A stretch of 64,000 nucleotides of DNA from Pontibacter anaerobius. GTDB lineage: Bacteria; Bacteroidota; Bacteroidia; Cytophagales; Hymenobacteraceae. A model generated the notes under the pieces. It ran no database searches. It was not told the DNA's origin and saw only the letters and a list, made by a program, of their open reading frames with translations. How positions within the stretch are numbered: the stretch's first letter is position 1; each line of letters opens with the position of its first letter. This document shows, one piece after another, positions 21,400 through 50,439 of the stretch. The position numbers and the translations under genes are program-made. The stretch covers positions 310,001 through 374,000 of the forward strand of contig NZ_JAPFQO010000006.1 of assembly GCF_026241195.1 (NCBI RefSeq). The letters run 5' to 3'.

Positions 21400-24300
21400 A
21401 TGAAAAACTATTTACGATGTATTTTGTGGGGGCTATGTATGCTCCTGCTACATGCAGAAGGTTTTGCTCAGGGCAAAACCGTAAGTGGCACGGTAACATC
21501 AGCAGAAGACAAGATTGAGCTTCCGGGTGTTTCTGTGACGGTTAAAGGCAAGCAGCGCGGTTCTGTAACCGATGCCGCTGGTCGTTATACGCTCAATAAT
21601 GTAGAGCCAAACGATGTGCTGGTTTTCTCCTTTATTGGTATGAAGCGGGCAGAGCGCACGGTAGGCAATGCCTCCACAATTGACGTTGCCCTGAAAACCG
21701 ATTCTGAGACACTGGATGAGGTCGTGGTAACGGCCTTTGGTGTGGAGCAGGAGAAACGCGCTTTAGGGTATTCTGTTCAGGAGTTGAAGACCAGAGATCT
21801 TACCGAGACCCAGCAGGCCAATATTGTAAACGCCATGCAGGGTAAGGTCGCGGGTGTACAGATCACGAATTCTGGTGGAGCACCAGGAGCTTCTGCCGTC
21901 ATGATGATTCGCGGAGGTACATCACTGAGTGGTAATAACCAGCCACTTTATGTGGTTGATGGAATCCCTGTAGACAATACAACTGCTGTAGGACAGGGGG
22001 GATTGGCAGCAGGAACAGCTCCTGCCTCGAACCGCGCCATTGATATAAACCCAGAGGATATTGCCAGCATTACCGTTCTGAAAGGGCCATCTGCAGCAGC
22101 GTTGTATGGTCTGCGAGCCGCAGAAGGTGTAGTGGTAATTACCACCAAAAAAGGGACAGCTGGCAAAGCAAAAATTAACTACTCTAATACTTTCTCATTT
22201 GACAAAGTGAACAGGCTGCCTGAATTCCAGTCTGTGTACAAACAAGGAGAACAAGGCGACTTCGATTCGGCAGCAATGGGCTCATGGGGGCCAACTTTTG
22301 AACCAGGTGAAACGAAGTATGATAACCTGGAAAGTATGTTCAAGTCTGCATTTACACAGAAGCATGATTTGTCTGTAAGCGGAGGTAACGACCGTTCTAG
22401 TTTCTATGCGTCTGCCTCTCATTTTGACCAAGGTGGTATCGTTGAAAATACGGAGCTAGAGCGTAACTCATTCCGCTTATCAGCTGATACAAAAGTCGGA
22501 GAGAAATTAAAGATTGGCGGTACAGCCAACTATACAAAAACTGGGAGAGCCTATGTGTCACAGGGTAGCGCCAGCGGAGTGATGGGAGCTGTATATTGGC
22601 CCCTTAACGATGATATGAGCAACTACCTCAATCCAGATGGCACACAACGCACTATTGGTGTTAATGATAACCCGCATTGGGGTGTTCGTAACAAGCCTAT
22701 CACCAGTGATGTAGACCGCATCATGGCTGTTGGTACCGTGATTTACGACCCTTTTGATTTTCTGAACGTGACTTACCGCTTAGGTACTGATTACTACACA
22801 GACAATTTTAACAGTGTTCGTATGCCTGGAACCACTGCTGTAGGTGAGGAAAGAGGGGCTATCTCTGAATCTACCACAAATAACCAAATCTCAACCTCTA
22901 CTTTATTGGTGACAGGTAAGCAGTCATTTGGCGATTTTAACACTAGCCTGACATTAGGGCATAATGCAGAAGACTCCCGCCGTCAAACTGCAACATGGTA
23001 CGGTCGAAACTTTATTGCTCCGGATTTCGCAAGTATAAACAATGTAGTTCAAACAGACCGAACAATTTCGCATGCCGTATCGCAGCGCAGAATAGTGGGT
23101 GTTTTCGGAGACCTTAACCTGGACTGGAAAGGAATTGCCTTCCTGAGCTTCCGTGGTAGGAATGACTGGTCTTCTACATTGCCAGTGAACTCGCGCTCCT
23201 TCTTCTACCCATCAGTGAGTACCTCTCTCGTTGTGACCGATTTACTGGAGGATATGGGTGCTATTTCAGCTGGTAGCGTACTTTCGTTCGCTAAAATCAG
23301 GGCATCCTGGGCCAGAGTAGGTAAAGATGCGCCTCCTCATGTGCTGGCAACCACTCTTGCAACAGCTACCAACAGTTTTACGATCGCCCCTCGTGGCTTC
23401 ATCTCTAACGCAAACGATTACTATGGTAACCCTGCACTAAAGCCTGAGTTTACAAACTCTATTGAGGTAGGTGCCGATGTACGTTTCTTCCGCAACAGGC
23501 TTGGACTGGACTTTACCTACTATAAAACTAGTACGGATGAACAGATTCTTGGTACCCGTACACCTCCTTCTTCCGGAGCTTTCCTGGCATACTTGAATGG
23601 TGGCCGAATCGATAATGAAGGGGTAGAACTGATGTTGAACACACAACCAATCACGAATGATATGTTTACCTGGCAACTCGACTTCAACATCGCCAAGAAC
23701 AAGGCTACTGTAAAAGACTTACCAGGCACTCTTGATCGCGTAGAACTTTCTGATGCATGGGTAGCAGGCTCTGTTGCCCAGGGTGCTGCCTTCTTAGGAG
23801 GATCCCTGTTCGGAATAAATGGTAATGTTTGGAAGCGTAACGAAGAAGGTCAACTGCTCCTTAATGATGAAGGATATCCACAGGTACAGTCTACACTCCA
23901 GTACATCGGTGATAGAAACCCAGATTGGACAGGTGGTATCACAAACACATTTAGCTACAATAACCTGTCGCTATCCTTCCTGTGGGATATTCGAGTAGGA
24001 GGTGATATCTATAATGCTACCGAAAACACTTTGGTGCGCTCTGGTCTGAGCACGAAAACGCTGGATAGGGGCCAGACTAAAGTATTCGAGGGTGTCATAG
24101 AGTCAACTGGTGAGCCTAACACCCAAAGTGTAGTGCTGGATCAGGACTACTACCAAACTATCTATCCTTTCCAGGGCTATGACTTTGTGGAAGATGGTAG
24201 CTGGTTAAGAATGCGCTACATCACATTGTCCTATAATCTGCCAAATGTACTTCTTGGGAGAACTCCGATTAGCGGCTTGCAGGTGTTTGCAACCGGACGT

Positions 24301-24450
24301 AACCTGATTCTAATCACAGACTACTCAGGTGTGGATCCTGAGGTGTCAGGAAGTGGTGCGGGTGTTGGTGGCTCTGGGTCATTTGGTTTCGATAACCTTG
24401 GCGTTCCTGCAACCCGTGGTTTCGATATTGGTTTAAAATTAACCCTGTAA
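21400..24450 (+). CDS. SusC/RagA family TonB-dependent outer-membrane transporter
   Basis: 1016 residues. A signal peptide (to about residue 24, ending EGFAQG) is followed by a carboxypeptidase-like beta domain (SGTVTSAEDKIELPGVSVTV), then a plug with MMIRGGTSLSGNNQPLYVVDGIPV split by the usual SusC sequence, then a 22-strand barrel ending in LGVPATRGFDIGLKLTL. No long N-terminal signalling domain is present. It should work with the SusD-like lipoprotein next to it to import a glycan or peptide. No degrading enzyme or sigma/anti-sigma pair is directly attached; the nearest downstream genes are cell-wall hydrolases. The codon style is more AT-rich than its flanks and holds only one AAGTATA heptamer. 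Confidence 0.93.
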   Translation: MKNYLRCILWGLCMLLLHAEGFAQGKTVSGTVTSAEDKIELPGVSVTVKGKQRGSVTDAAGRYTLNNVEPNDVLVFSFIGMKRAERTVGNASTIDVALKTDSETLDEVVVTAFGVEQEKRALGYSVQELKTRDLTETQQANIVNAMQGKVAGVQITNSGGAPGASAVMMIRGGTSLSGNNQPLYVVDGIPVDNTTAVGQGGLAAGTAPASNRAIDINPEDIASITVLKGPSAAALYGLRAAEGVVVITTKKGTAGKAKINYSNTFSFDKVNRLPEFQSVYKQGEQGDFDSAAMGSWGPTFEPGETKYDNLESMFKSAFTQKHDLSVSGGNDRSSFYASASHFDQGGIVENTELERNSFRLSADTKVGEKLKIGGTANYTKTGRAYVSQGSASGVMGAVYWPLNDDMSNYLNPDGTQRTIGVNDNPHWGVRNKPITSDVDRIMAVGTVIYDPFDFLNVTYRLGTDYYTDNFNSVRMPGTTAVGEERGAISESTTNNQISTSTLLVTGKQSFGDFNTSLTLGHNAEDSRRQTATWYGRNFIAPDFASINNVVQTDRTISHAVSQRRIVGVFGDLNLDWKGIAFLSFRGRNDWSSTLPVNSRSFFYPSVSTSLVVTDLLEDMGAISAGSVLSFAKIRASWARVGKDAPPHVLATTLATATNSFTIAPRGFISNANDYYGNPALKPEFTNSIEVGADVRFFRNRLGLDFTYYKTSTDEQILGTRTPPSSGAFLAYLNGGRIDNEGVELMLNTQPITNDMFTWQLDFNIAKNKATVKDLPGTLDRVELSDAWVAGSVAQGAAFLGGSLFGINGNVWKRNEEGQLLLNDEGYPQVQSTLQYIGDRNPDWTGGITNTFSYNNLSLSFLWDIRVGGDIYNATENTLVRSGLSTKTLDRGQTKVFEGVIESTGEPNTQSVVLDQDYYQTIYPFQGYDFVEDGSWLRMRYITLSYNLPNVLLGRTPISGLQVFATGRNLILITDYSGVDPEVSGSGAGVGGSGSFGFDNLGVPATRGFDIGLKLTL

Positions 24451-24463
24451 ACTGTACTTCATC

Positions 24464-26032
24464 ATGATAAATAGATTTTCAAAAATAAAGCTGTTTTTAA
24501 TTGCTTCCACAGTGCTATTCAATACTTCATGTGAAGATTATTTGGATATAAATGATGACCCTAACCTTCCTACCTCAGTACCGGCTCATAGCCGTCTGGT
24601 AGGTGCAATTACAACCACCAACGGGTCAGCCATGTGGAGAGGGTCGAGAGAAGTTGCTGCTGTAACGCAGTATGCCTCAACAGCTCTTACAACTGGTTCT
24701 AACAGAAACGCTGAGACATGGAGGTTTACAGCAAGCTATTTCTTCTGGCAGAATGCCTATGTCTTCACAATGCCGAACAGTGTAGATTTGATTGTACTGG
24801 GCGAGAAAGAAGGTAACCCTCACTTTGTGGGTGCCGGTAAAACACTTCTGGCGTTGAACCTGGGGATGCTGACGGATCAGTATGGAGCTATTGTGGTAGA
24901 TGATTACTATGATGGTAACTCCCAGATTAACCTTACACCAACATTTAACAAGCAGGAGGAAGTATACCAGCGCATCCAGCAATTGTTGGATGAAGCCATT
25001 ATTGCTTTCGATAATCCTAAAAATAAAACACCACTGAATTTTAGTGGTGGAGATATTATGTATCAGGGTGATGTAGACAAATGGCGCCGTTTTGCCTGGT
25101 CGTTAAAGGCAAGGTACATGAACCATCTTTCAAAGAAAAGTAGCCTGTATGATGCACAGAAAATTATAGAAGCAGCTCAGAATGGTTTTAATGCAGATGG
25201 CATGGATGCTGAATTTGCTTACTTAGAAGGAGGGCAGCAGACTGACGAAAACCCTTGGTATAGCTGGGGTGGTTTTACCAATGCTAACCCAGTAAATAAC
25301 CGCTATTTTACATGGTCTCAGTTTTTTGTAAGCCTTCTGCAAAACCTGCCTGTAACAGAAGCTGACTACCAGGATCCACGCATTAGCCGTATTATGCAAC
25401 CGGCTCCATCTGATGGAGAATACCGTGGTCTGAAATCAGGTTTAGGTCTGGCCGGAGGCCAGGGAGGAACTGGTCAGTTTACCGATGTAGAAGACTATGG
25501 GCAGTTCAAAAACAGTGGTTTCTATACGAGAGCGACTTCCCCGTTCCCGTTCATTACTTATTCAGAAGTAAAGCTGATAGAGGCAGAAGCCCGTTTACGT
25601 TCCAATGATGCGTCTGGAGCACTTGCAGCCTACGAAGAAGGTGTAAAAGCCAACATGCGCAAATTGGGGGTCCCTGCTGCTGAAATCAATGCCTATTGGG
25701 CAGCGCAGTTAGAGAATGGTGTGGTTGACCACTTTAATAATCTCACAAATGGCCTGAGCCATATTATGCGCCAGAAGTATATCACACAGACTCTGAACCC
25801 AGAGACATGGGTAGATATGCGTCGTATGGATTACAGCCAGGAGATTTATGGTCCTTACTTGCAGCGCCCTGCTAATATTAATACAGTAGTGTTCAATGCC
25901 AATGATCCAAATCAATGGATACAGGCCATGATTTACGAAACTAATGAGCAGAACAGAAATGGTGACCAGATAGGTGACAACTCAGCACAGTACCGCTTAC
26001 TGACCCCTTTATGGTGGAATACACCAGAATAA
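24464..26032 (+). CDS. SusD/RagB family nutrient-binding lipoprotein
   Basis: 522 residues beginning MINRFSKIKLFLIASTVLFN with a lipobox ending TSC, then EDYLDINDDPN, the start typical of the SusD-like family 2. It is the lid of the SusC barrel and starts 14 bases after susC. The C-terminal region includes YITQTLNPETWVDMRRMDYSQEIY, conserved in the family. The ligand is unknown. Together with susC it forms a two-gene operon closed by the terminator at 26056-26088. Confidence 0.93.
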   Translation: MINRFSKIKLFLIASTVLFNTSCEDYLDINDDPNLPTSVPAHSRLVGAITTTNGSAMWRGSREVAAVTQYASTALTTGSNRNAETWRFTASYFFWQNAYVFTMPNSVDLIVLGEKEGNPHFVGAGKTLLALNLGMLTDQYGAIVVDDYYDGNSQINLTPTFNKQEEVYQRIQQLLDEAIIAFDNPKNKTPLNFSGGDIMYQGDVDKWRRFAWSLKARYMNHLSKKSSLYDAQKIIEAAQNGFNADGMDAEFAYLEGGQQTDENPWYSWGGFTNANPVNNRYFTWSQFFVSLLQNLPVTEADYQDPRISRIMQPAPSDGEYRGLKSGLGLAGGQGGTGQFTDVEDYGQFKNSGFYTRATSPFPFITYSEVKLIEAEARLRSNDASGALAAYEEGVKANMRKLGVPAAEINAYWAAQLENGVVDHFNNLTNGLSHIMRQKYITQTLNPETWVDMRRMDYSQEIYGPYLQRPANINTVVFNANDPNQWIQAMIYETNEQNRNGDQIGDNSAQYRLLTPLWWNTPE

Positions 26033-26101: not shown

Positions 26102-27022
26102 ATGAAGAAGCTTTCACTTTTTAGTATCGTGTTGCTTATGCTAAGTATGTGTATAAGTGCAGATGCACAAACCTCTGCCCATAAGGTGTTGCGGCAGCAT
26201 ACGGAGAAACAGCTAAGTGAAATTATTGGCCATTCGCCAGCTGTCACCGGACTTGTGGCTGTTGATCTTACTACCGGAGATACCTTTTCTTTTAATGCGG
26301 ATGTGATTTTTCCGCAGGCAAGCGCTATTAAAATCCCTATCCTGATGAGCGTGTATAAGCAGGCGCACGAGGGCAAATTCACCCTCTCAGATAGCAGGAA
26401 AGTGGAAAGGGCTGACGTAGTGGGCGGAACTGGGATTTTGAAAGACCTAGCGGATACTCCCTCCATGAGTATTCGTGACCTGGGCGTGCTGATGATAAGC
26501 CTGAGCGATAACACAGCCACTAACTCACTTATCGAGCTGGTAAGTATGCAGGAGATAAATGCCATGCTACGCTCAGTGGGCGCAAAGAAAACAATAGTTC
26601 AGCGTAAGATGATTAACTCGGCTGCTTCTGGCAGAGGCGAGGAAAACCTGTCTACACCGGCCGATGCTGCTCATATTCTGCAATTATTATACAGAGGCGA
26701 GTTTATCAATAAAGCTTCCTCAGATGAGTTCATGTTCATTCTAAAGAAAACAGACCGGCAGACAAGCCGATTGGCTGTTGGATTACCGGGCGATGTGCCA
26801 ATTGCTTTTAAGCCAGGTGTCCTTAACGGTGTGTCTACCGAATGGGCCATTGTGCTGCTGCCCGAGCGGCCTTATGCTGTTGCTGTAATGGAGAGTTTTA
26901 AAGTGAAGGGGCAGTCACAAAACACCGTGGAAGAGCTATCGGAAGTGCTGTATCAATACTTCTGGCGGACAGGCAATGCCACCCGCTACGGTACTTACGT
27001 GGACCCGAAGCATATCAAGTAA
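26102..27022 (+). CDS. class A beta-lactamase-like serine hydrolase
   Basis: 306 residues with a signal peptide ending at about ISADAQ. The first motif is SAIK (S74, K77), the second SDNTATN. The third motif, normally KTG, reads KPG in AFKPGVLNGV. The omega-loop region (INSAASGRGEENLSTPADAA) lacks the standard ExxLN motif containing the catalytic glutamate of true class A enzymes. So this is likely a periplasmic serine hydrolase of the class A fold that may not give resistance; it could act on peptidoglycan-derived peptides. It is followed within 50 bases by an amidase. Confidence 0.8.
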   Translation: MKKLSLFSIVLLMLSMCISADAQTSAHKVLRQHTEKQLSEIIGHSPAVTGLVAVDLTTGDTFSFNADVIFPQASAIKIPILMSVYKQAHEGKFTLSDSRKVERADVVGGTGILKDLADTPSMSIRDLGVLMISLSDNTATNSLIELVSMQEINAMLRSVGAKKTIVQRKMINSAASGRGEENLSTPADAAHILQLLYRGEFINKASSDEFMFILKKTDRQTSRLAVGLPGDVPIAFKPGVLNGVSTEWAIVLLPERPYAVAVMESFKVKGQSQNTVEELSEVLYQYFWRTGNATRYGTYVDPKHIK

Positions 27023-27070: not shown

Positions 27071-28072
27071 ATGCCAAAGTACCTGCGTTTCCTTCTGTTT
27101 GTTGTTTTCATATTGATCTATCTTCCTGCGCCTGCCCAGAAGCGGAGTAATCCATTGGCTGGTAAGGTTATTTGTCTGGATGCCGGACACGGTGGCACAG
27201 CAGAGATAGATAAGTACCGTGCGGGGCTATCGGGTGAGCGGGAGGAGTGGATTAACCTGCGGGTAGCGCTGTTGTTGAAGGAGATGCTGGAGGAGAAAGG
27301 GGCCAGGGTGTTGATGACACGCACGGCCGATGATAACGTTCTACTTGCAGACAGAGCCCAGATGGCTGTCGATAATGAGGCAGACATTTTCCTTTCAATC
27401 CACCACAATGCCACGGCCGATCCAGGTGCTAACTTTCCTATCATCTATTTTCACGGCAATGCCTCAGAAAATACTGCCAGTGTAACCTTAAGTAGGCAGG
27501 TGGCTCTGGCACTCTCCGAGCATCTTTACAAAGGGAGTACGCCGGTGAGTCTGGCCTCAGATCACGTTATCTTCGCGACTGCAGGCACAAAGGTGCTGCG
27601 GGATACTTACGGAATACCTGGAGTCATTGCAGAAGCATCCTTTTTCACGAATCCGGAGGAGGAAAAGCGGTTGAAGAAGAGAGGCTATAACCGCAGGGAG
27701 GCGCGGGCGTACGTGATAGCCTTGGAGGCTTTCTTCAGCAAGCCTGAGCAGCCTGTTTTACCAAAAAACTCCCTGGTAAGTCTTCCACCTTTCAAGGCCT
27801 TTCAGGAAGCAGAGCGTATGAACGAAACTGCCCGGCTCTGGCGTCGGGATTTCCTAAGAGCCCAGGCATTGATGGCACATAAAGATTCTGCCTCTTTGCA
27901 CCAGGCGTTTGAGCTGTTCACCCGATCCGCCCGTTCGTTTCCAGACTCCTATGTGGCTGCACAGTGCCATAAGAACAGAGCTATCATTCTGGAAATGCTA
28001 GGTAAGAAAGAAGAGGCAAAGCAGGAGGCGCTGCGGTCTAAGGAGCACTTTGTGCGCGTAAGTGAAAAGTAG
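27071..28072 (+). CDS. N-acetylmuramoyl-L-alanine amidase (Amidase_3)
   Basis: 333 residues, signal peptide of about 23 residues. The zinc amidase fold shows VICLDAGHGG (first ligand), WINLRVALLLKEMLEE with the glutamate ligand region, LMTRTADD and FLSIHHNA (histidine ligand), then GVIAEASFFTNPEEE with the catalytic glutamate. It cuts the bond between MurNAc and L-alanine in peptidoglycan. After residue 240 comes an alpha-helical tail with a TPR-like feel (FELFTRSARSFPDSYVAAQC). It is in line with the class A-like gene and the next amidase. Confidence 0.9.
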   Translation: MPKYLRFLLFVVFILIYLPAPAQKRSNPLAGKVICLDAGHGGTAEIDKYRAGLSGEREEWINLRVALLLKEMLEEKGARVLMTRTADDNVLLADRAQMAVDNEADIFLSIHHNATADPGANFPIIYFHGNASENTASVTLSRQVALALSEHLYKGSTPVSLASDHVIFATAGTKVLRDTYGIPGVIAEASFFTNPEEEKRLKKRGYNRREARAYVIALEAFFSKPEQPVLPKNSLVSLPPFKAFQEAERMNETARLWRRDFLRAQALMAHKDSASLHQAFELFTRSARSFPDSYVAAQCHKNRAIILEMLGKKEEAKQEALRSKEHFVRVSEK

Positions 28073-28133
28073 CATCAGAGTACACCAACCTCAAGCGAAT
28101 AATTTTGAATCAACTATAGTAAACTGTAACATT

Positions 28134-28820
28134 ATGAATGTAAATACAAGGTCTTTGAATAGAGTTGCCGTCAAAGCGGGTGCCATTGGACTAATGTTTC
28201 TGAGTGCCTGTGCCTCACCCACCTTTCGTATCCTTGAGAAGCCTATTGTTTTTGATGAGGAGCGCAAGCAACTATCGTTGGAGTACCTAAAAGCCAGGTA
28301 TAACATGCAGAAGGATGCGCCTTATATAGAACCAAAAATGATTGTACTGCATTGGACGGCCATACCTACACTGGAGAAGTCTTTCAACGCCATGAACCCC
28401 ACACTGCTGCCTGGTTCCCGCACCGCGATTGGCTCTGCCAGTAGCCTGAATGTGTCCGCTCAGTTTCTAGTGGACAGAGATGGTACAGTTTACCGGCAAC
28501 TCCCGGACACTGCTTTTGCCCGTCATGTAATCGGCCTGAATCACTGTGCTATCGGAGTGGAAAATGTAGGAGGGGGGAAGGAAGGGTTGACGAAAGCGCA
28601 ATTGAAAGCCAATGTGGAGCTGGTGAGGTATCTGAAAAGTAAGTATGATATTGAATATCTGATCGGCCACTATGAGTATCAGGATTTTGTCGGTCACCAT
28701 TTGTGGAAAGAAGTTGATGCCGGCTACAGAACTAAGAAAGTAGACCCGGGTAAAGATTTTATGAGAAAGGTCAGGATAAAAACAAAGGACCTGGAATTGA
28801 AAGGGTCGCCTCAATCTTAA
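28134..28820 (+). CDS. N-acetylmuramoyl-L-alanine amidase lipoprotein (Amidase_2/AmpD fold)
   Basis: About 228 residues from the ATG at 28134 (MNVNTRSLN). The frame is open upstream into the previous gene, but the signal sequence GLMFLSAC with its lipobox places the start here. The zinc site is MIVLHWTAI (first histidine), a second histidine in RHVIGLNHCAIGVENVGGGK, and a C-terminal KVDPGKDF. This is the PGRP/AmpD fold that cleaves the MurNAc-L-Ala bond, perhaps on released muropeptides. A close functional partner is the amidase at 49519-50439. Confidence 0.88.
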   Translation: MNVNTRSLNRVAVKAGAIGLMFLSACASPTFRILEKPIVFDEERKQLSLEYLKARYNMQKDAPYIEPKMIVLHWTAIPTLEKSFNAMNPTLLPGSRTAIGSASSLNVSAQFLVDRDGTVYRQLPDTAFARHVIGLNHCAIGVENVGGGKEGLTKAQLKANVELVRYLKSKYDIEYLIGHYEYQDFVGHHLWKEVDAGYRTKKVDPGKDFMRKVRIKTKDLELKGSPQS

Positions 28821-28979
28821 AGGCAGAGCCATTTCTCAAAGCTTTTTTTGTAGTACCAAGACTATTGAATAGAAATATATTCGAAAGCAGGATATGAAAG
28901 CTGTTCATTTTCGCAGGCACTATACAACTATTAATAAAAACATGATTCATCCCGGAGTTTAGGGCTAGGATGAAAAAAG

Positions 28980-29033
28980 AGAACCTCCTGTGTTAGGGAT
29001 ATGGTCAATGTATCGCCTAGACCAGGAGGTTCT
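28980..29033. repeat. 11-bp inverted repeat flanking 32 bases
   Basis: AGAACCTCCTG (28980-28990) and CAGGAGGTTCT (29023-29033) are perfect reverse complements. They lie immediately upstream of the decayed transposase and could be an end structure of that mobile element. Confidence 0.45.
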
Positions 29034-29057
29034 TAAGTTTACCTCTTCTAAAAACGC

Positions 29058-29551
29058 ATCTCCCCAAGGCCTGATGGTCTCTCCCACCGCCTCGACGATT
29101 TCCTGGCCCCCTTCCTGCAACAACTTGATAAGCTATTGGACCACCGGCTGGTGTTGACCTTCCGGGGCCTGTGCCAGGGGCTGGTGCGGCACCGTAGCCG
29201 CTCCTAGGGCCTGCTTTTGAGCGAGCTAAGCCGGGTGCTGCTCTCCCCAAGCAAGGCCCCGGCGAGCACCGAGAGGCTGTCCAACCTTTCGAGGAGCAAG
29301 GAGTGGCCTTCGGAGATAATTGCCAACCACCTCACGGATGGGGCCCAAAAGTATGTGGAGGGGCGACAAGGCCTCCTCGCGGCTCTCGCTACTGCTCTGG
29401 GCAGGTGGAACAGGCCTTCCGCTTCAACAAGGCCGAGATGGACATGGAGTCCTGCAGGCTCTGGTTTTGAGGCAACATGGTGAGGCTGCTGCAGGTCGTA
29501 CCCCTGGTCTACGCCTTCCTGCTCTCCCTAATGTGGGAGGCCAATTTCTAA
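29058..29551 (+). pseudogene. decayed insertion-sequence transposase
   Basis: The plus strand can be read as transposase-like fragments only across stops and a frame change. The first part (from about 29058) reads SHRLDDFLAPFLQQLDKL and LVLTFRGLCQGLVRHRSRS, then a TAG, then LLLSELSRVLLSPSKAPAS and NLSRSKEWPSEIIANHLTDG. After a frame change near 29400 it reads QVEQAFRFNKAEMDMESCRL with a TGA, then LLQVVPLVYAFLLSLM and a final TAA. The join skips most of a catalytic domain, so a large internal deletion is likely. The region is more GC-rich than its flanks. The IS family is not certain. Confidence 0.7.
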
Positions 29552-41894: not shown

Positions 41895-43241
41895 ATGCGC
41901 CTGATAAACCCGATTTCCAGATGGGGGATGCTGTTTAGCCTGCTCCTGAGTATGGCCTGTGGTAGCAAGGTGCCCACCACATCGGCAGAGGAGGTGCGTT
42001 TCGGCCCGGCTGAGATTAAAAAGGAGGTGGCTGAGTCGGAGGTGCTGCGGCAGAGCTTTGTGGGCTTTGCGCTTTACGATCCGGAACTGGGGCAAATGGT
42101 GGTGGAGCATAACGCCGATAAGTACTTTGTGCCGGCCTCTAACACCAAGCTTTTCACTTTTTACGCCTCGCTTAAAATGCTGGGCGACTCTATACCCGCG
42201 CTGAAGTACGTGAGCCGTGGTGATTCGCTTATTTTCTGGGGTACCGGCGATCCAACCTTCACTCACATGGACCTGAAGAACACGTTGGCCTACGAGTTTC
42301 TGAAGAACCGCCCCGAGGAGAAGCTATACTATGTGGATGCCCCCTTTACGAGTACACCCTTCGCCACGAACTGGGGTTGGGATGATTACAATTATTATTA
42401 CCAACCGGAGCGCAACGTGTTCCCGATCCACGGTAATGTCATCAAATTCGCTAAAGAAGAGGGAAAGCCATTTACAACCACACCCGCATACTTTGAAAAG
42501 AACATTGTGGTGGATACGGCCGCTTCGCGCTCGGAAGATGCTTTTGTAAGAGGCTGGCGCACGAATAAAATAGCCTATCACCCAAGATATGCGGCAGCGA
42601 AGTTCTCTACCGAGGTTCCATTTATCACCTCTCCCGAGATGGTGGTGACACTGCTGGCCGACACACTCAAACGACCTGTTGAGTTGCTTAAAGCGGCGGT
42701 GCCGGAAGGGGGAAAGATCTTTTACGGCCTACCCACCGACACAGTGCTGCGGCGCATGCTGCAGGTGAGCGACAACCTGATGGCGGAACAACTGATGGCG
42801 CTCAGCTCCGGCACACTTTCCGACACCCTCTCAGTGGAACGTGCGATAAAACACGTAAAAGAGACTTACCTGGCAGATCTGCCGGATGAACCGGTCTGGA
42901 TCGACGGCTCCGGCCTCTCGAGCATGAACATGTTCACGCCCCGCAGCATCATCGCGCTGCTGCAAAAATTGATGCAGGAGCGACCGCAGGAACGGCTGTT
43001 GCCCATGCTGGCTGTTGGCGGAAGGCCGGGCACTTTCCGTAATATTTATAAGGCCGATATCCCTTTCGTGTTCGGCAAATCGGGTACCTTGTCGCATGTG
43101 CATAACCAGAGCGGTTATATTATCACCAAAAGCGGAAAGTTGCTGCTATTCAGCTTTATGAACAACAACTATAAAGTGCCTACCTCGGATATACGGAATG
43201 AGATGGTGCGGATCATGACGAAGGTGCACAACAGTTATTGA
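41895..43241 (+). CDS. dacB: D-alanyl-D-alanine carboxypeptidase/endopeptidase (PBP4, S13 family) lipoprotein
   Basis: 448 residues with lipobox ending SMAC. The three penicillin-binding motifs are present: SNTK (S82, K85), SDNLMAEQ and FGKSGTLSH. The S13 fold removes the terminal D-alanine or opens peptide cross-links in peptidoglycan. It has its own promoter and is 136 bases upstream of a dipeptide epimerase on the same strand, so the two could be co-transcribed. Being a lipoprotein it should sit at the outer or inner membrane facing the periplasm. Confidence 0.93.
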   Translation: MRLINPISRWGMLFSLLLSMACGSKVPTTSAEEVRFGPAEIKKEVAESEVLRQSFVGFALYDPELGQMVVEHNADKYFVPASNTKLFTFYASLKMLGDSIPALKYVSRGDSLIFWGTGDPTFTHMDLKNTLAYEFLKNRPEEKLYYVDAPFTSTPFATNWGWDDYNYYYQPERNVFPIHGNVIKFAKEEGKPFTTTPAYFEKNIVVDTAASRSEDAFVRGWRTNKIAYHPRYAAAKFSTEVPFITSPEMVVTLLADTLKRPVELLKAAVPEGGKIFYGLPTDTVLRRMLQVSDNLMAEQLMALSSGTLSDTLSVERAIKHVKETYLADLPDEPVWIDGSGLSSMNMFTPRSIIALLQKLMQERPQERLLPMLAVGGRPGTFRNIYKADIPFVFGKSGTLSHVHNQSGYIITKSGKLLLFSFMNNNYKVPTSDIRNEMVRIMTKVHNSY

Positions 43242-43377: not shown

Positions 43378-44391
43378 ATGAAACTTACCATCCGGTCTTT
43401 TGACCTGCCGCTGAAGCATACCTTTACCATTTCCTATGACTCTCGCGATACACAACCCACTATGATCGTGGAGCTGGAGCAGAACGGGCACAAAGGCTAT
43501 GGCGAGGCCACCAGCAACCCTTACTATGGCTTCACCATTGAGAGCATGACGGAGGCGCTGGAAAACATCCGTGAGCAAATTGAGGCGACTGAACTGAAAC
43601 AGCCGGAGGATTTCTGGGCACAGATGCAGCCGCACCTGGCCAATAATCCCTTTGCATTATGCGCCCTCGATATGGCCGCCAACGACCTTTACGGAAAGCT
43701 GAAAGGGCAGCCACTTTACAAAATATGGGGACTGAGCCCCGACCACAACCCGCTCACAGACTATACCATTGGCATCGATACCATTGATAACATGGTGAAG
43801 AAGCTGAAGGAGATGCCTTGGCCGCTGTACAAGATAAAATTAGGTACTAAGGAGGATGTGGCTATTATTAAAGAGCTGCGCAAGCATACTGATGCCGTGT
43901 TCCGGGTGGATGCCAACTGCGCCTGGGGTGTGGAGGGGACCATCGAGAACTCCAAGCAACTGAAACCCCTTAATGTGGAGTTTATAGAGCAGCCGATGCG
44001 CGCTGACGATATGGACGGCATGAAACAGGTATACCGGCAGTCGGTGTTGCCACTGATAGCCGACGAGAGCTGCATTACCGAAAGTGATGTGGCCAAGTGC
44101 CAGGGCCACTTCCATGGTGTGAACGTGAAACTGGTGAAAGCAGGCGGCCTGACACCTGCGCGGCGCATGCTGAAAGAAGCCCGTGAGCTGGGAATGAAAA
44201 CCATGGTGGGCTGCATGACTGAATCTACGGTAGGTATCTCGGCCATCGCGCAGCTGTTGCCGATGCTTGATTACGTGGATATGGACGGTCCGCTACTTAT
44301 CAGCAAAGATATCGCCCGCGGCATTACCATCGACTACGGCAAAATACACTACAGCACTGTAAACGGAACCGGTGCCGAGTTAATCGCCTGA
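43378..44391 (+). CDS. L-Ala-D/L-Glu (dipeptide) epimerase
   Basis: 337 residues of the enolase superfamily, with an N-terminal cap (RSFDLPLKHTFTISYDSRDT) and a barrel carrying LYKIKLGTKEDV, VFRVDANCAWG and IADESC metal-ligand segments, then KLVKAGGLTPARRM. The lysine of YKIKLGT and the later lysine of VNVKLVKAGG are the usual catalytic pair. This best fits the dipeptide epimerase class that inverts the glutamate of L-Ala-D-Glu from murein. o-Succinylbenzoate synthase (MenC), missing from the men cluster here, belongs to the same superfamily, but the neighbours favour epimerase. Confidence 0.85.
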   Translation: MKLTIRSFDLPLKHTFTISYDSRDTQPTMIVELEQNGHKGYGEATSNPYYGFTIESMTEALENIREQIEATELKQPEDFWAQMQPHLANNPFALCALDMAANDLYGKLKGQPLYKIWGLSPDHNPLTDYTIGIDTIDNMVKKLKEMPWPLYKIKLGTKEDVAIIKELRKHTDAVFRVDANCAWGVEGTIENSKQLKPLNVEFIEQPMRADDMDGMKQVYRQSVLPLIADESCITESDVAKCQGHFHGVNVKLVKAGGLTPARRMLKEARELGMKTMVGCMTESTVGISAIAQLLPMLDYVDMDGPLLISKDIARGITIDYGKIHYSTVNGTGAELIA

Positions 44392-45479
44392 TGAGCAAGC
44401 CTGCCTATACCGACCACCTGCCGGGCCGCACCGTGATGCTGGAGGGGGAGGAGTTTCTCTACTGCAGCGGCACCTCTTACCTGGGTATGGCCTGTAATAA
44501 GGCTTTTCAGCAACTGGTGCTCGAGGGCATGCAGCGTTACGGCACCAATTACTCCAGCTCCCGGCGCTCCAACCTGCGCCTGCAGGTGTACGGACAGGTG
44601 GAAGAGCAGCTGACACGTATCAGCGGGGCCGAGGCGGCTGTTACCATGTCGTCGGGGTTTTTGATGGGGCAAACGCTGGCGCAGGTGCTGCGCAACCGGG
44701 GGCGGTTTCTGTATGCCCCGGCAGCACACCCGGCCCTGTGGCTGGATGAGTGCGCAGCAGGCCAGGCCAACGCCGATATCACCTTTAGCGAGTGGACAGA
44801 CCTGGTGCTGGAGGAGGTGCAGGCATCTGATAAGGAGCGCTTTATACTTATCTGCAACGCTCTGGACCCCCTTAAGGCCGAAAGCTATACTTTTGACTGG
44901 GTGGCGCAGCTGCCGGAGCAGCAGAAAATCATACTTGTGGTTGATGACTCCCATGGCTTCGGGGTGACCGGGCCGGAAGGTGCTGGCATTTACCCGGCGC
45001 TCAGCAAGTATAAAAATGTAGACCTGGTAGTGGTGAGTTCTTTTGGGAAGGCGCTCGGCGTGCCGGCCGGTTTCATACTTGCCTCGAAAGAAATGGTGGA
45101 GCTGGTAAAGGCAAGCCCATACTTTGGCGGGGCTTCCCCGGCCATACCGGCGTACCTGCATGCTTACCTGCAGGCAGGCGAAGTGATAAAAGAGGCGAGA
45201 GGGCGGTTGCAGCAGAACATCCATACTTTTCTGGGGCAAGTGGAGCAGGCGGAGCAGCTGTTCCGCTTTATCCCGGATTACCCGGTATACAGCACCTCGC
45301 ATGAAAGTATGGCAGCGTATCTGCACCAGCACCGCATACTCATTTCCAGCTTCCGCTACCCAACCAATGAGAGTGCACCCATCAACCGGGTTATCTTAAG
45401 CAGCCTGCACACGCCTGCCGATTTGCAACGGCTGGCGGAGGCGGTAAACCAATTCTCTGCAAAATTTGTCATAAATTAG
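44391..45479 (+). CDS. AONS/KBL-type PLP enzyme
   Basis: 362 residues. It starts at the base that ends the epimerase stop (TGATG). The fold is that of alpha-oxoamine synthases: YCSGTSYLGMACNKAF, NYSSSRRSNLRLQVYGQVEEQ, VDDSHGFGVTGPEG and the PLP-binding lysine in VVSSFGKALGVPAGFIL. Family members join an amino acid to an acyl-CoA (L-alanine with pimeloyl-CoA for biotin, or glycine with acetyl-CoA). Its coupling to the dipeptide epimerase suggests that it uses alanine or another murein-derived amino acid. It is about 30 residues shorter than typical BioF. Confidence 0.8.
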   Translation: MSKPAYTDHLPGRTVMLEGEEFLYCSGTSYLGMACNKAFQQLVLEGMQRYGTNYSSSRRSNLRLQVYGQVEEQLTRISGAEAAVTMSSGFLMGQTLAQVLRNRGRFLYAPAAHPALWLDECAAGQANADITFSEWTDLVLEEVQASDKERFILICNALDPLKAESYTFDWVAQLPEQQKIILVVDDSHGFGVTGPEGAGIYPALSKYKNVDLVVVSSFGKALGVPAGFILASKEMVELVKASPYFGGASPAIPAYLHAYLQAGEVIKEARGRLQQNIHTFLGQVEQAEQLFRFIPDYPVYSTSHESMAAYLHQHRILISSFRYPTNESAPINRVILSSLHTPADLQRLAEAVNQFSAKFVIN

Positions 45480-45557: not shown

Positions 45558-46745
45558 ATGATGAAAAGAAATTACCTCATACTTGCCCTTGGCTTTCTGA
45601 TGGCCTGCACCACAGGAAAGGAAGCTACCACCTCTACTGCCACTGCAGATGCCTCGATGGAGCCATACATTGAGGCCGTGCGCCAGCACTATGCGCCTGA
45701 CAAGCGTGTGGCTCTGTTTAAGGTGGAACAACGGGGCAATGTGCTCTCTGGTGAAACAAACATGCCGGAGGCAAAGCAGGAACTGCTGGACAAACTGAAG
45801 GCGGAGAACATCACCATTGTGGACAGTATTCAGGTGCTGCCGGAGGCGGAGCTGGAAGGCAAGACTTTCGGGGTAATCACCATTTCTGTGGCGAACCTGC
45901 GCTCAGAACCGAAGCACCCCGCAGAGTTGGCTACGCAGGCCACTATGGGCACGCCGGTACAGGTGTATAAAAAGGAGAGAGGCTGGTACCTGGTGCAAAC
46001 CCCGGACAAATACCTGGCCTGGGTAGATGCCATGGGCGTAACCCTGATGGACAAATCCTCTTTTGATACCTGGCAGAAAAGCCCGAAGCTGCTCTACACA
46101 AAGCCGTATGGCTTCGCCTACGAAACAGCCAATGCTACGTCTGGCACCGTGTCGGACCTGGTTTTTGGCGATGTGCTGGCGCTGCAGCAGAAGGAGGGCG
46201 ACTTCTATGCGGTTACTTTTCCGGATGGTAGAAAAGGCTTTGTGCCGGCTGCGGAGTCTGTAAAGTATGATGAGTGGATAGCCGGCCGCAAGCCGAGCGG
46301 CGAGAACCTGGTGAATACCAGCAAACAGCTGCTGGGGCTGCCTTACCTGTGGGGCGGTACCTCGTTTAAAGGCGTGGACTGCAGTGGCTTTACCAAAACA
46401 GTATACTTTATGAACGGACTGGTGCTTCCCCGCGATGCCTCGCAGCAGGTGCACATGGGCGAACTGGTGGATACCTCGAATGGCTGGAATAACCTGCAGC
46501 CCGGCGACCTGCTCTTCTTCGGCGTTCCAGCGAAGGACGGGAAATCAGAGCGTGTAGTGCACGTGGGTATGTGGATTGGCGGTAACCAGGAGTTCATCCA
46601 CTCTGCCGGCCGTGTGCGCATCAGCAGCATGAATCCGGATGCCGAAAACTATGATGAGTCGGAGCTTAAGCGTTTTCTGCGTGCCAAGCGCATTACCCCT
46701 GAGGATGCGGTTGTTGACCTGCGTAAAACAAATCTGTATCAGTAA
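45558..46745 (+). CDS. NlpC/P60 endopeptidase with SH3 domains (C40)
   Basis: 395 residues, lipobox ending FLMAC. Two SH3-like domains (about 95-160 and 165-230) precede a C40 catalytic domain with YLWGGTSFKGVDCSGFTK (C275), VVHVGMWIGG and the third residue in HSAGRVRIS. It resembles YkfC-type gamma-D-glutamyl-L-diamino acid endopeptidases, which release L-Ala-D-Glu from murein peptides. That product is the substrate of the epimerase two genes upstream, so the pair makes biochemical sense. The operon ends at the terminator at 46795-46820. Confidence 0.92.
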   Translation: MMKRNYLILALGFLMACTTGKEATTSTATADASMEPYIEAVRQHYAPDKRVALFKVEQRGNVLSGETNMPEAKQELLDKLKAENITIVDSIQVLPEAELEGKTFGVITISVANLRSEPKHPAELATQATMGTPVQVYKKERGWYLVQTPDKYLAWVDAMGVTLMDKSSFDTWQKSPKLLYTKPYGFAYETANATSGTVSDLVFGDVLALQQKEGDFYAVTFPDGRKGFVPAAESVKYDEWIAGRKPSGENLVNTSKQLLGLPYLWGGTSFKGVDCSGFTKTVYFMNGLVLPRDASQQVHMGELVDTSNGWNNLQPGDLLFFGVPAKDGKSERVVHVGMWIGGNQEFIHSAGRVRISSMNPDAENYDESELKRFLRAKRITPEDAVVDLRKTNLYQ

Positions 46746-46826: not shown

Positions 46827-46850
46827 TTTCAAGCCAATACTGGCAAACAA

Positions 46851-47900
46851 TTACCGTGTCAGTTGCTGTAGCTGCTTCACCAACTCCGATTTAGGGCTGA
46901 GCTCCGGAAAATGACTAAGCACCTGCAGCAAGTCATCCAGAAAAACCTGGTTCCCGGCGATATTGGAGAAGCAGGCAATAACCGTATTGTGGTGGGGGAG
47001 TCGCATGACGAGGTTGGTGAAGCCGGAGGTGTCTCCGCTGTGGAAGAGTTCGGAGGTGCCGTTGCCATCCTCTGCCTGAAACCAGCCCATGCCGTAACGC
47101 CAGCTTTTTGCTTCGTCAATAGTTGCTATGTTTTTGTTTAGTTTGTTATTTATGTTAAATAAAGGGTGGGATGATAAACTCCGGTGCCACTTCAGGTAAT
47201 CCTTTGCGGAAGTATAAATGCAGCCGTCGCCGCGGGTGGCCGTGCCGATGTTCTGGTCTGAAAGTTCAAACCTGTCTTCGGCAGCCCTGCTGTAGCCCAT
47301 CGCTCTGTTCGGAATGGCAGCTTCAGGCTGGTAAAGTATGGAATGGGGCATTTGCAAGGGCTCAAATATGTTCTCAAGCAGAAAATCAGCATAGTTTATA
47401 CTTGCTACCCGTTCCACCAGCAGGCCCAGCAGCACGTAGCCCGTGTTACTGTAGCGGTATTGGTTGCCGGGCGAGAAGAGGAGTGCCGGTTGTGCGGCAG
47501 TTATCCGCAGCACATGCTCATCTGTTAGTTGGGCTGCCTGGTTTTCGGGGATGTGTTCTTCAAAGTCGGGGAGGCCGGAAGTATGGTTTAGCAGGTGCAA
47601 CAGCCGTATTTCGCTAAAATGAGCCAGCTCCGGGAAGTATAAACCGATACTGTCTGTAAACTTCAGCAGGCCCCGCTGCGCCAGCAGGTGTACACACATA
47701 GCGGTGAACTGCTTTGAGACGGAGGCTAACCTGAAAGTTGTGTCCGGCGTGATGGCAGCACCGGTGTCTAAATTCGCCTTACCTGCTCCACGCAAGTATA
47801 AAACTTCATCTTCCCGGGCTACCAGTAGCACAGCGCCAGGCGTAAAACGCGTGAAATGGCGTGCTAAGAGGGAGTCCAGGGCATTTTCTAGAGTAGGCAT
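46851..47900 (-). CDS. serine hydrolase, beta-lactamase (class C) family
   Basis: 349 residues with no evident signal peptide. Motifs are FRLASVSKQFTA (SxxK), YRYSNTGYVLLG (YxN) and FHSGDTSGF (HSG in place of KTG). This is the S12/class C fold, which includes esterases and D-amino-acid peptidases as well as beta-lactamases; the absent export signal argues against a role in resistance. It stands alone, convergent with the murein peptide operon. Confidence 0.87.
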   Translation of the reverse strand: MPTLENALDSLLARHFTRFTPGAVLLVAREDEVLYLRGAGKANLDTGAAITPDTTFRLASVSKQFTAMCVHLLAQRGLLKFTDSIGLYFPELAHFSEIRLLHLLNHTSGLPDFEEHIPENQAAQLTDEHVLRITAAQPALLFSPGNQYRYSNTGYVLLGLLVERVASINYADFLLENIFEPLQMPHSILYQPEAAIPNRAMGYSRAAEDRFELSDQNIGTATRGDGCIYTSAKDYLKWHRSLSSHPLFNINNKLNKNIATIDEAKSWRYGMGWFQAEDGNGTSELFHSGDTSGFTNLVMRLPHHNTVIACFSNIAGNQVFLDDLLQVLSHFPELSPKSELVKQLQQLTR

Positions 47901-48133: not shown

Positions 48134-49393
48134 ATGACCGAATCAAGTACGCCACTGCTCACCAACGAAGCTGTGGTACTGGGCATCCTGCTCGTCATCC
48201 TGGCACTGGTTTTCCATACAGCCTCCAGCACGCACCGTTTTTGGGTCCGCTTTTACAAAGTTATCCCTTCGCTGCTGTTGTGCTACTTCCTGCCAGCCCT
48301 GCTCAACACGTTTAATGTTATCTCCGGTGAGACCTCGCAGTTATACTTTGTGGCCTCTCGCTTTTTCCTGCCGGCCTCGCTCATCCTGCTCACCATCAGC
48401 ATCGACTTTAAGTCGCTGCGCATGCTGGGTAGCAAGGCCGTGATCATGTTCTTTGCCGGTACGGTGGGGGTGATGCTAGGCGGTCCGCTGGCCTTGTTCC
48501 TGGTGGGTTCTATGTTCCCGGACGTGCTGTATACCGGCGATGACGAAGTATGGAAAGGACTGGCCACGATCTCAGGTAGCTGGATTGGCGGCGGCGCAAA
48601 CCAGGCGGCCATGCTGGAGGTGTTCGGGGCGAGCAAGGAGGCTTTCGGGCAAATGATTGCCGTGGATGTGCTGGTAGCCAATGTTTGGATGGGCTTCCTG
48701 CTTTACTTTTCGCAGAAGCCCGAGAAGATCGATAAGCTGCTCAACGCCGACAGCCGCCCGATCAGGGAGCTGGAGGAGCGATTGGAGGGGCTGCAGGCCG
48801 GTAAGCGCATGATGCCTACCATCACCTCCACCATGGTGCTGCTCGGGGTGGCCTTCGGCTTCACCGGCCTTTCCCACTTTCTTTCAGATATCATAGCGCC
48901 ATACTTTGCCGAGAACTTTCCGGAGCTGGAAACTTACTCCATCACCAGTGGCTTCTTCTGGTTGGTAATTATTGCCACAACCGCCGGCCTGGTGCTCTCG
49001 TTTACCAAGGCGCGCGACCTGGAGGGCTACGGTGCCTCCCGTTTTGGTTCTGTGTTCCTGTACTTCCTGGTGGCAACCATCGGCATGAGCATGGACCTGG
49101 GCGCTGTGCTCGACAACCCCAAGCTGTTCCTGGTGGGCGCTTTCTGGATCACCTTCCACATCCTGATCATGTTGGTGGTGGCGCGTATCATCCGGGCACC
49201 GTTCTTCTACGTGGCCGTGGGGAGCCAGGCCAATATCGGCGGGGCAGCGTCGGCTCCTATTGTGGCGGCGGCCTTTAACCGCTACCTGGCCCCGGTGGGT
49301 GTGCTGCTTGCCGTGCTGGGCTATGCCGTGGGTACCTATGGCGCTTACCTATGTGGCCTTATGCTACAGTATGTCTGGAATATGCTGGCGTAG
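48134..49393 (+). CDS. DUF819 family membrane protein (YjcL-like)
   Basis: 419 residues, about ten to twelve hydrophobic helices. The glycine-rich segments ISGSWIGGGANQAAMLEVFGA and GSQANIGGAASAPIVAAAFN are family hallmarks and may form a pore or binding site. The family is thought to be a transporter of unknown substrate. It stands alone with its own strong terminator. Confidence 0.85.
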   Translation: MTESSTPLLTNEAVVLGILLVILALVFHTASSTHRFWVRFYKVIPSLLLCYFLPALLNTFNVISGETSQLYFVASRFFLPASLILLTISIDFKSLRMLGSKAVIMFFAGTVGVMLGGPLALFLVGSMFPDVLYTGDDEVWKGLATISGSWIGGGANQAAMLEVFGASKEAFGQMIAVDVLVANVWMGFLLYFSQKPEKIDKLLNADSRPIRELEERLEGLQAGKRMMPTITSTMVLLGVAFGFTGLSHFLSDIIAPYFAENFPELETYSITSGFFWLVIIATTAGLVLSFTKARDLEGYGASRFGSVFLYFLVATIGMSMDLGAVLDNPKLFLVGAFWITFHILIMLVVARIIRAPFFYVAVGSQANIGGAASAPIVAAAFNRYLAPVGVLLAVLGYAVGTYGAYLCGLMLQYVWNMLA

Positions 49394-49447
49394 AAGGTAG
49401 AAAGGTAAAATTGCTGAACACTTATCTTTACTTATAAAAGTATAAAC

Positions 49448-49494
49448 CGTCCCCGGTGAGAGAAACTGCTCTTGCCGGGGACGATTTATTTTAC
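49448..49494 (+). terminator. intrinsic terminator after the DUF819 gene
   Basis: A perfect 9-bp outer stem CGTCCCCGG / CCGGGGACG (49448-49456 and 49475-49483) extends inward with AGAG/CTCT and two G-T pairs, giving about 15 paired positions, then a T-rich tail. An AAGTATA heptamer lies just upstream at 49438. Similar outer-stem sequence appears at 50527. Confidence 0.8.
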
Positions 49495-49518
49495 AGGGAA
49501 TTTAAGATTTGTAAACTT

Positions 49519-50439
49519 CTACAGATACTTCTGATACAGGTTGTAAAGTATGATCTTGTCTTTTTCCGTCAGCTCCATACTTACTTCATCCTGGATAAAG
49601 TGCAGCTTAAAGGCACGAATGGCGGCGGGCATGTCTCGGGTATCGTATCCGATGATACGGAGCGCCTCCTTCGGGTTGAAATGCGGCGGTATGGTCGAGA
49701 TCGAATCCAGGGGCTGAAGTATAAGTACAGGCTCTGTACCGGTGCTGTCGAGCACCGTGATGGGCGCTGCTGGCTGTAGGTATTGCTCCACTACGCCCTC
49801 ATCATACCACAGGCCATAGCCATGCTCGGCCAGCCTTTTCCAAGGGAAAGTGGCGTTCGGATCTACCTTTCGTACCGGGGCAATGTCGGAGTGGCCAATA
49901 AAGTTCTCTGCCGGGATGCCGTGGGTTTCCTTGAGCATGGCCAGCACCTCCAGCAGGCTGCTGATCTGCGCCTCCTCAAACGGCTCGGCGCCGTTGTTGT
50001 CCAACTCTATACCGATGGAGGAGGAGTTGAGATCCGTGTTGTTGCCCCAGCGGCTGTTGCCCCCGTGCCAGGCACGCAGGTTATCGTTCAGCATGTGGTA
50101 TACTTTGCCGTCGCGGCCAATTACGTAATGCGCACTCACCTGCGTTTGCGGCTTGGTAAAGGTCTTTAACGTATGGTCGGTGGAGTTCTGGGCAGTATGG
50201 TGGATCACCACGAAGTTAGGGCGGCGCAAGCTGAAGTTGGTGGTGCCCACCCAATGCTCTCCAAATGTCAGTGTAGATGTTTCCGGATCAATGGCAGGTA
50301 CAGTACGCAGCTGCTTCGAGTACGCTTTGAGCTGTTTCTTGTGTTCGCGGTTTGTGCTGGCATAAGGGTTCGGGCTGCAGCTGTAGAGGCAGGCGCTGGC
50401 CAGCAGCAGCGAGAAAAGGGCAGTAGAAGTATACTTCAT
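49519..50439 (-). CDS. N-acetylmuramoyl-L-alanine amidase lipoprotein (Amidase_2/AmpD fold)
   Basis: 306 residues, lipobox ending CLYSC. Zinc motifs are FVVIHHTAQ (first histidine), LRAWHGGNSRWGNNTDLNSS with histidine and serine, and HSDIAPVRKVDPNATFPW (last histidine, DP). It cleaves the amide bond between MurNAc and L-alanine. The C-terminal 80 residues (GYDTRDMPAAIRAFKLHF) form the helical peptidoglycan-binding-like tail seen in AmiD-type enzymes. It is separate from the other amidases in this window but shares their substrate. Confidence 0.9.
   Translation of the reverse strand: MKYTSTALFSLLLASACLYSCSPNPYASTNREHKKQLKAYSKQLRTVPAIDPETSTLTFGEHWVGTTNFSLRRPNFVVIHHTAQNSTDHTLKTFTKPQTQVSAHYVIGRDGKVYHMLNDNLRAWHGGNSRWGNNTDLNSSSIGIELDNNGAEPFEEAQISSLLEVLAMLKETHGIPAENFIGHSDIAPVRKVDPNATFPWKRLAEHGYGLWYDEGVVEQYLQPAAPITVLDSTGTEPVLILQPLDSISTIPPHFNPKEALRIIGYDTRDMPAAIRAFKLHFIQDEVSMELTEKDKIILYNLYQKYL

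Follow-up and report, generated by a model that had tools for sequence, protein, structure and literature searches.

Positions 21400-50439 of the window, the 64,000-nucleotide stretch of a 4.65-Mb Pontibacter genome analyzed here (G000:C6:310001-374000), hold a putative SusC/SusD importer pair together with genes for wall amidases, glycosidases, and peptide-processing enzymes. We consider it likely that this block is a reshuffled Pontibacter locus for the salvage of peptidoglycan fragments (muropeptides), with amidases that act on the imported fragments in the periplasm. This reading is founded on the observed gene content, close packing of genes, and synteny; synteny and co-occurrence carry the case for clustering beyond chance. 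The original prediction, made from the DNA alone, had suggested a muropeptide utilization region, which is supported by a block that is syntenic in the genus and includes MurQ or NamZ in about half of the genomes searched. Our confidence stays slightly short of evenly balanced for a narrower proposal, namely that SusC, SusD, and amidase together serve Cytophagales, Sphingobacteriales, Chitinophagales, and Balneolales as an outer-membrane importer dedicated to muropeptides, with periplasmic removal of the stem peptide as the first step and a DUF819 protein as candidate carrier replacing AmpG.

Gene content and synteny in Pontibacter

Genes were called as longest open reading frames (ORFs), and some neighbors masked by antisense ORFs were regained by tblastn. 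All genes of the set are intact ORFs, each with a family match (Pfam above cut-off). They include every gene listed by the original prediction, among them its three amidases (Amidase_3 at 27071-28072, Amidase_2 at 28062-28820 and 49519-50439). Beyond that list, the block holds a BioF/Kbl-like gene, a second serine hydrolase, a DUF819 gene, and a DUF3078 gene.

21400-24450, + strand: SusC, TonB-dependent outer-membrane importer (TIGR04056, 4.7e-201, 670.7 bits)
24464-26032, + strand: SusD lid lipoprotein (PF12771)
26102-27022, + strand: BlaA, serine hydrolase of the class A beta-lactamase fold (PF13354, 9.6e-58)
27071-28072, + strand: Ami3, Amidase_3 N-acetylmuramoyl-L-alanine amidase (PF01520, 2.8e-31)
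28062-28820, + strand: Ami2a, Amidase_2 (AmpD-type), probable lipoprotein (PF01510, 4.1e-19)
29706-31277, - strand: GHL10 (DigH-like) glycosidase (PF02638, 5.7e-84, 282.3 bits, cut-off passed)
31541-34570, + strand: NagZ-like GH3 fused to a serine hydrolase domain (PF00933, 2.4e-80; PF00144, 1.8e-49)
35489-36376, + strand: DUF3078 protein (PF11276)
36515-38482, - strand: NagB-LmbE fusion (NF002557, 1078 bits)
38521-39771, - strand: ROK-family regulator, NagC-like (PF00480; NF047937 at 205.9 bits, below the cut-off of 650)
39971-41785, + strand: GH9 (PF00759, 2.8e-67)
41895-43241, + strand: DacB, S13 D-Ala-D-Ala carboxypeptidase/endopeptidase (PF02113, 1.5e-41; TIGR00666 at 108.8 bits, cut-off 107.8)
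43378-44391, + strand: dipeptide epimerase (nearest solved chain 3iji, also 3ijl and 3ijq; 1.1e-69)
44391-45479, + strand: BioF/Kbl-like PLP enzyme, overlapping the epimerase gene by 1 base
45558-46745, + strand: NlpC/P60 peptidase with SH3 domains (3npf, 5.7e-80; 3pvq, 2.1e-77; then 3h41, 9.7e-28)
46851-47900, - strand: second serine hydrolase, PF00144 superfamily (PF00144, 5.3e-60)
48134-49393, + strand: DUF819 membrane protein, candidate inner-membrane carrier (PF05684, 1.2e-89)
49519-50439, - strand: Ami2b, AmpD-type amidase, probable lipoprotein (PF01510, 2.2e-34)

Three likely transcription blocks can be distinguished. SusC-SusD-BlaA-Ami3-Ami2a follow one another on the + strand with gaps of 13, 69, 48, and -11 bases, as do GH9-DacB-epimerase-BioF-like-NlpC (109, 136, -1, and 78 bases), and the ROK gene is paired with NagB-LmbE on the - strand. 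Near these lie GHL10 (-), the GH3 fusion (+), the second serine hydrolase (-), DUF819 (+), and the AmpD-type amidase (-). The epimerase is an enolase-superfamily protein whose nearest solved relatives are dipeptide epimerases, and a dipeptide is its predicted substrate. Its closest chain, 3iji, is filed as a muconate cycloisomerase and is presumably an epimerase; the next matches are named as such. The epimerase is also followed by a BioF/Kbl-like gene in L064-L066, L068, and L071, which come from a different family of the class. A small secreted-looking protein without Pfam match is encoded inside the block at 34706-35200, and the neighboring DUF3078 gene is retained in the siblings L049 and L050.

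Synteny in relatives, the check that the original prediction had called for, was indeed seen, in contrast to the missing synteny that would have counted against it. The search covered 31 genomes of the genus, sampled evenly from a larger group; they are related to one another, so that counts within the genus are not independent. The epimerase and GHL10 each occur in 24 of them (E 1e-60) and occur together in 23, lying ≤30 kb apart in 19 of these 23. Four siblings (G012, G014, G020, and G022) share the order GHL10, GH3 fusion, NagB-LmbE, ROK, DacB, epimerase, BioF-like, NlpC, in places interrupted by other genes. G001 keeps this order with no ROK call, its epimerase being located by a separate homology search. 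In the distant Pontibacter loci L053, L055, and L062, the genes for Ami2b, DacB, epimerase, BioF-like protein, DUF819, and NlpC are consecutive on one strand, with DUF819 between the BioF-like gene and NlpC (the L053 epimerase, masked by an antisense call, also came from a separate homology search). Their places in this run associate DUF819 and Ami2b with the peptide branch. Distances from SusD (E 1e-30) to GHL10 were listed for a chosen 15 of 25 same-genus genomes, and G011 (5.2 kb apart) brings this to 16.

The sugar branch is represented in the relatives by MurQ and NamZ. Both are above cut-off in all 31 genus genomes and lie ≤20 kb from GHL10 in 15 (MurQ) and 14 (NamZ) of them. Pfam and NCBIfam place NamZ in L054, L059, and L102. 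They likewise place MurQ in L054 and L101 and show an SSF symporter as its neighbor in L053 and L101. Because MurQ and NamZ act on N-acetylmuramic acid, such neighbors indicate peptidoglycan rather than another glycan. AmpG (TIGR00901) is above cut-off in none of the 31 genus genomes, with seven weak partial matches; a divergent AmpG could be missed, since the Tannerella forsythia AmpG is itself just 27% identical to the Escherichia coli protein (excerpted text of PMC7670621). The missing clear AmpG points to another inner-membrane carrier. The term DUF819 was absent among the literature matches listed.

The window carries a reshuffled version of this locus, in that its SusC/SusD pair is not the one that the siblings have at this spot and NamZ and MurQ lie outside. 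At the site of the window pair, the siblings hold another SusC (∼44%) and SusD (∼29%). Between Ami2a and GHL10, the window has a degraded, insertion-sequence-like stretch of 885 bases (28821-29705) with no ORF of ≥120 amino acids wholly inside. Partial copies of its positions 28940-29640 occur at G000:C11:8384 (91%), C3:392532, and C1:639286. Separately, siblings L046, L049, L050, and L060 carry an extra pair of SusC (∼31%) and SusD (23%) between DacB and ROK, in the place of the window GH9. The window seems to have lost this pair, as L050 has a GH9 86% identical to that of the window (39971-41785) right beside it. A second salvage-type cluster occurs in L047, L048, L052, L054, L059, and L061, where SusC/SusD, DUF4397, an Amidase_2 lipoprotein, polysaccharide deacetylase, GH9, a metallophosphatase with beta-propeller, and GHL10 appear in varying combinations.

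The SusC/SusD-amidase operon

SusC passes the TIGR04056 cut-off and is adjoined, at a gap of 13 bases, by a SusD family protein, which together mark a predicted importer pair. The nearest solved chain to SusC is BT_2264 (3.8e-118), and the next best match follows at 4.8e-60. An AlphaFold model of SusD built from 75 sequences has a mean pLDDT of 92.3; a first, poor model from 8 sequences (pLDDT 42) was discarded. The best fold matches of the model are BT2259 (Z 38.9), BT2263 (37.5), and Fjoh_4561 (37.2); AqSusD also matches (34.1 and 33.7). SusD is ∼20% identical to BT2263.

Class A beta-lactamases are characterized by the motifs SxxK, SDN, Glu166, and KTG. BlaA has SAIK and SDN. It has no Glu at the position of residue 166 and shows KPG where KTG would stand, a pattern found in all four aligned orthologues, the window protein included. 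Against the class A model NF033103 it scores 118.8 bits and does not reach the cut-off of 200. With Glu166 missing and KPG in place of KTG, we rejected an ordinary beta-lactamase identity for 26102-27022, and BlaA is probably not an ordinary beta-lactamase. The amidase families are matched above cut-off, and the two His, Glu, Lys, and Asp residues that serve catalysis in AmpD-type enzymes are present. In Ami2a, whose true start is probably M25 of ORF 28062-28820, the H/E/H/K-DPG residues are kept in 15 of 15 aligned orthologues. Neither Ami2a (24.9 bits) nor Ami2b (105.3 bits) passes the AmpD equivalog model NF008758 (cut-off 143 bits); by sequence, both are AmpD-type enzymes and not AmpD.

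Signal sequences were judged by eye; a simple lipobox pattern overlooked several of the lipoproteins counted (SusD, DacB, and NlpC among them). BlaA, Ami3, GHL10, and the GH3 fusion appear to have ordinary signal peptides; SusD, Ami2a, Ami2b, DacB, and NlpC appear lipoprotein-like; and the epimerase, BioF-like protein, NagB-LmbE, and ROK protein appear to have no signal peptide. No type IX secretion tail was found among the family matches shown for the scanned window proteins. Most Ami2a orthologues have a Cys where the lipobox would end. It is missing in the Sphingobacterium loci L126, L127, and L129 (in L129 the lipobox pattern matched an earlier Cys inside the hydrophobic stretch). This picture argues for a periplasmic enzyme. 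If the amidase is periplasmic, the imported species should still hold the bond that it cuts and would be a muropeptide, not a free peptide. The enzymes of the block look periplasmic, as would suit an importer of fragments rather than a digester of the sacculus.

The SusD copies in G004 and G022 are 90-93% identical to that of the window, and all other matches (E 1e-30, 39 relatives) are ≤39% identical. Among 390 genomes of the order, orthologues 72-84% identical occur in five others. From a wider genome collection we retrieved 50 SusD loci (L100-L149, identity from 46% upwards), including records of Pontibacter, Rufibacter, Larkinella, Spirosoma, Dyadobacter, Pedobacter, Sphingobacterium, Parapedobacter, Pseudoflavitalea, and Balneolales; found with two peptide patterns, this set is not exhaustive and perhaps omits the genome of the window itself. 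Two loci (L117 and L140) were excluded as too short. In 25 of the 48 assessable loci, SusD is followed on its own strand by a homologue of Ami2a (45-82% identity) that starts ≤3.5 kb downstream, within 0.3 kb in 21 of these loci and within 1.35 kb in 23. L134, with an amidase relative upstream on the opposite strand, was scored as lacking. In a control of 11 SusD paralogue loci from the same genus (∼30% identical), no amidase was found; nine of these (L005-L013) hold ∼1.4 kb of downstream sequence, a length that would miss the amidases of L101 and L102.

The operon is found in five Pontibacter genomes, in three of them inside the salvage locus. In Pontibacter silvestris (L101), MurQ (above cut-off), the symporter, Ami2b, SusC-SusD-BlaA-Ami3-Ami2a, the GH3 fusion, and a NagX-like gene (below the cut-off of its model) stand in succession. 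Pontibacter sp. BT731 (L102) has NamZ, the same five operon genes, a second SusC/SusD pair, DUF4397, and GHL10. In both of these loci, the operon is joined to the sugar branch. In two genomes of the genus g83, SusC-SusD-Ami2a lie near GHL10 and a D-Ala-D-Ala dipeptidase. BlaA is missing from the operon of G004; a homologue of it (63%) is found in the NamZ-GHL10 cluster of that genome (L059). The siblings' different SusC/SusD, together with the orthologues elsewhere in G022 and G004, had raised the idea that the pair is only a mobile cassette, which was dropped because P. silvestris and BT731 also carry the operon inside the salvage locus.

Proposed route and alternative explanations

In the salvage reading, soluble wall fragments would be bound by the SusD lid and brought in via SusC. 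In the periplasm, Ami3, Ami2a, and the AmpD-type lipoprotein Ami2b would strip the stem peptides from N-acetylmuramic acid. By family, DacB and the serine hydrolases may trim D-Ala or cross-links, the NlpC/P60 enzyme may cleave the stem peptide, and GHL10 and the GH3 enzyme may shorten the bared glycan. A candidate carrier, perhaps DUF819, which is put forward by gene position only, might move small products inward. There, the epimerase would convert the freed dipeptide, and NagB-LmbE and MurQ (the latter encoded on another contig) would pass the sugars to metabolism, perhaps under the control of the ROK protein.

The SusC/SusD pair is the weakest link of this argument, and several observations speak against the reading. 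The closest solved SusC, BT_2264, belongs to a peptide importer, and the SusD model resembles the lids of peptide importers and chitin-binding lids about equally, so that the fold leaves the ligand undecided. At E 1e-65, SusD occurs in only six of the 390 genomes of the order, as a sparse accessory. The amidase is absent downstream in 23 of the 48 assessable loci. Identities below 63% are found in 11 of these 23, among them records of Cyclobacterium, Phaeodactylibacter, and Saprospiraceae, versus 4 of the 25 amidase-bearing loci. The amidase is also missing in six Pedobacter records and in Anditalea (L104) and Dyadobacter (L107), both above 70%; SusC/SusD may serve another role where it is lacking. 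In two of the five Pontibacter genomes, G022 and G004, the operon is found away from the locus, next to a gene for an S9 peptidase. In the window, the present site of the pair may be recent, given the other pair of the siblings and the adjoining part-repeated 885-base stretch, and the window genome has MurQ at C10:160332 on another contig and NamZ at C2:12511 on another contig and at C6:85497, ∼250 kb off. Finally, SusC is no general partner of GHL10 in the phylum, as it was found in 4 of 40 GHL10 stretches versus 2 of 20 epimerase control stretches (3 of 20 by protein comparison), and we rejected a general linkage of GHL10 with SusC/SusD. The 40 stretches, four of them shorter than 19 kb, came one each from 40 of 57 genomes with GHL10 and were searched with the window SusC as sole query, so that a distant SusC may escape. 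The same stretches have a relative of the GH3-serine hydrolase in five cases, of an amidase in five, and of the epimerase or NlpC in four.

A more distant SusD (∼24%) from Bacteroides, Barnesiella, and a Paludibacteraceae record is followed by GHL10 at 2.7-3.8 kb downstream in all seven assessable loci (L151-L157; L150 is too short). Lipoprotein-like genes lie in between, one of them in L151 with a PKD domain. This is perhaps a separate SusCD-GHL10 locus.

The nearness of SusC to BT_2264 and the high rank of BT2263 in the fold comparison of SusD are what a general oligopeptide importer would lead one to expect. A complex of Bt2263/64 with peptide is mentioned in PMC7782687. Genes for S9 peptidases stand on either side of the operon or beside it in L044 and L045, and L120 has one nearby. 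The amidases would then be incidental, or free stem peptide would be imported. We regard this as unlikely, because an Ami2a homologue, where one lies downstream of SusD, mostly stands directly behind it, which makes the close partner a wall amidase and not a protease, and because NamZ and MurQ as neighbors concern sugar and not peptides. Alternatively, the block could serve the turnover of the cell's own wall, with SusC/SusD recapturing self-shed fragments or being an unrelated neighbor. Such hydrolases also serve division, as does E. coli DigH (from part of PMC12288456), and both the difference between the window pair and that of the siblings and the insertion-sequence-like remnant beside the operon would fit. 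However, the pairing of amidase and SusD recurs across orders and in several genomic places and is thus not an accident of insertion in the window, which leaves this explanation with a still smaller share. A locus for chitin or N-acetylglucosamine oligosaccharides appears very improbable. It would account for the ROK protein, NagB-LmbE, GH9, GH3, and a SusD similar in fold to the chitin binders Fjoh_4561 and AqSusD, and the GH3-beta-lactamase fusion RmNag3 acts on acetyl-chitooligosaccharides (part of PMC6987092). Yet no chitinase family is among the matches of the 20 scanned proteins, the three amidases, DacB, the epimerase, and NlpC/P60 have no evident role in chitin use, and NamZ and MurQ are present in the loci of relatives. 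The import and salvage of muropeptides remains our preferred reading, as SusC/SusD and wall amidases share an operon in roughly half of the orthologue loci and in several orders.

Relation to known systems and significance

Peptide recycling of the Bacillus ykf type combines an epimerase with the NlpC/P60 enzyme YkfC. The window resembles it in that the epimerase is two genes from an SH3-bearing NlpC/P60 protein related to 3h41, which we take to be YkfC of Bacillus cereus. It differs in having no ABC transporter among the scanned block genes and a DUF819 membrane protein instead. Within the Bacteroidota, T. forsythia also salvages wall fragments, with a cluster for N-acetylmuramic acid and peptidoglycan (Tanf_08345-08385; MurT, MurK, MurQ, and AmpG). 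Like this cluster, related Pontibacter loci pair MurQ with an SSF symporter, MurT-like by our reading, and with amidases. Unlike it, they come from a genus with no AmpG above cut-off in its 31 genomes, and the Pontibacter locus has SusC/SusD and a peptide branch of epimerase and NlpC/P60. In the main-text portion of the T. forsythia report, "TonB" is absent and "outer membrane" appears once (PMC7670621).

With the SusCD peptide importers BT2261-2264 and RagAB, the window pair shares its closest solved SusC (BT_2264) and the lid fold of SusD; the operon partners are wall amidases here, and the low identity to BT2263 sets the lid apart. Like polysaccharide utilization loci (PULs), the operon joins SusC/SusD with tandem hydrolases, whereas its putative target is a glycopeptide, its enzymes are amidases, and it is without a hybrid two-component regulator or a predicted surface hydrolase. 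The locus can thus be described as PUL-like and directed at peptidoglycan fragments. The fusion at 31541-34570 has the same domain order (GH3 and beta-lactamase) as RmNag3 of Rhodothermus marinus. That organism lacks AmpG, and the authors infer a periplasmic enzyme with a function in peptidoglycan turnover. Unlike the window fusion, RmNag3 is encoded without neighboring glycosidase genes and alongside four intracellular proteins (both from part of PMC6987092). For E. coli DigH, activity on denuded glycan is reported (part of PMC12288456).

Every enzyme family of the block is already known, as is wall-sugar salvage in Bacteroidota (Tannerella). A SusC/SusD pair for muropeptides was not named among the literature matches listed, from a search whose scope took in few subscription journals. 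Gram-negative users of the wall fragments of others must pass these through the outer membrane. The SusC-SusD-amidase operon is a concrete candidate for this step in genera that include named strains, namely Pontibacter, Rufibacter, Pedobacter, Sphingobacterium, and Spirosoma. If the proposal is true, it would show how such bacteria take wall fragments across the outer membrane, filling that gap in salvage, and would widen the substrates of SusCD systems to glycopeptides.

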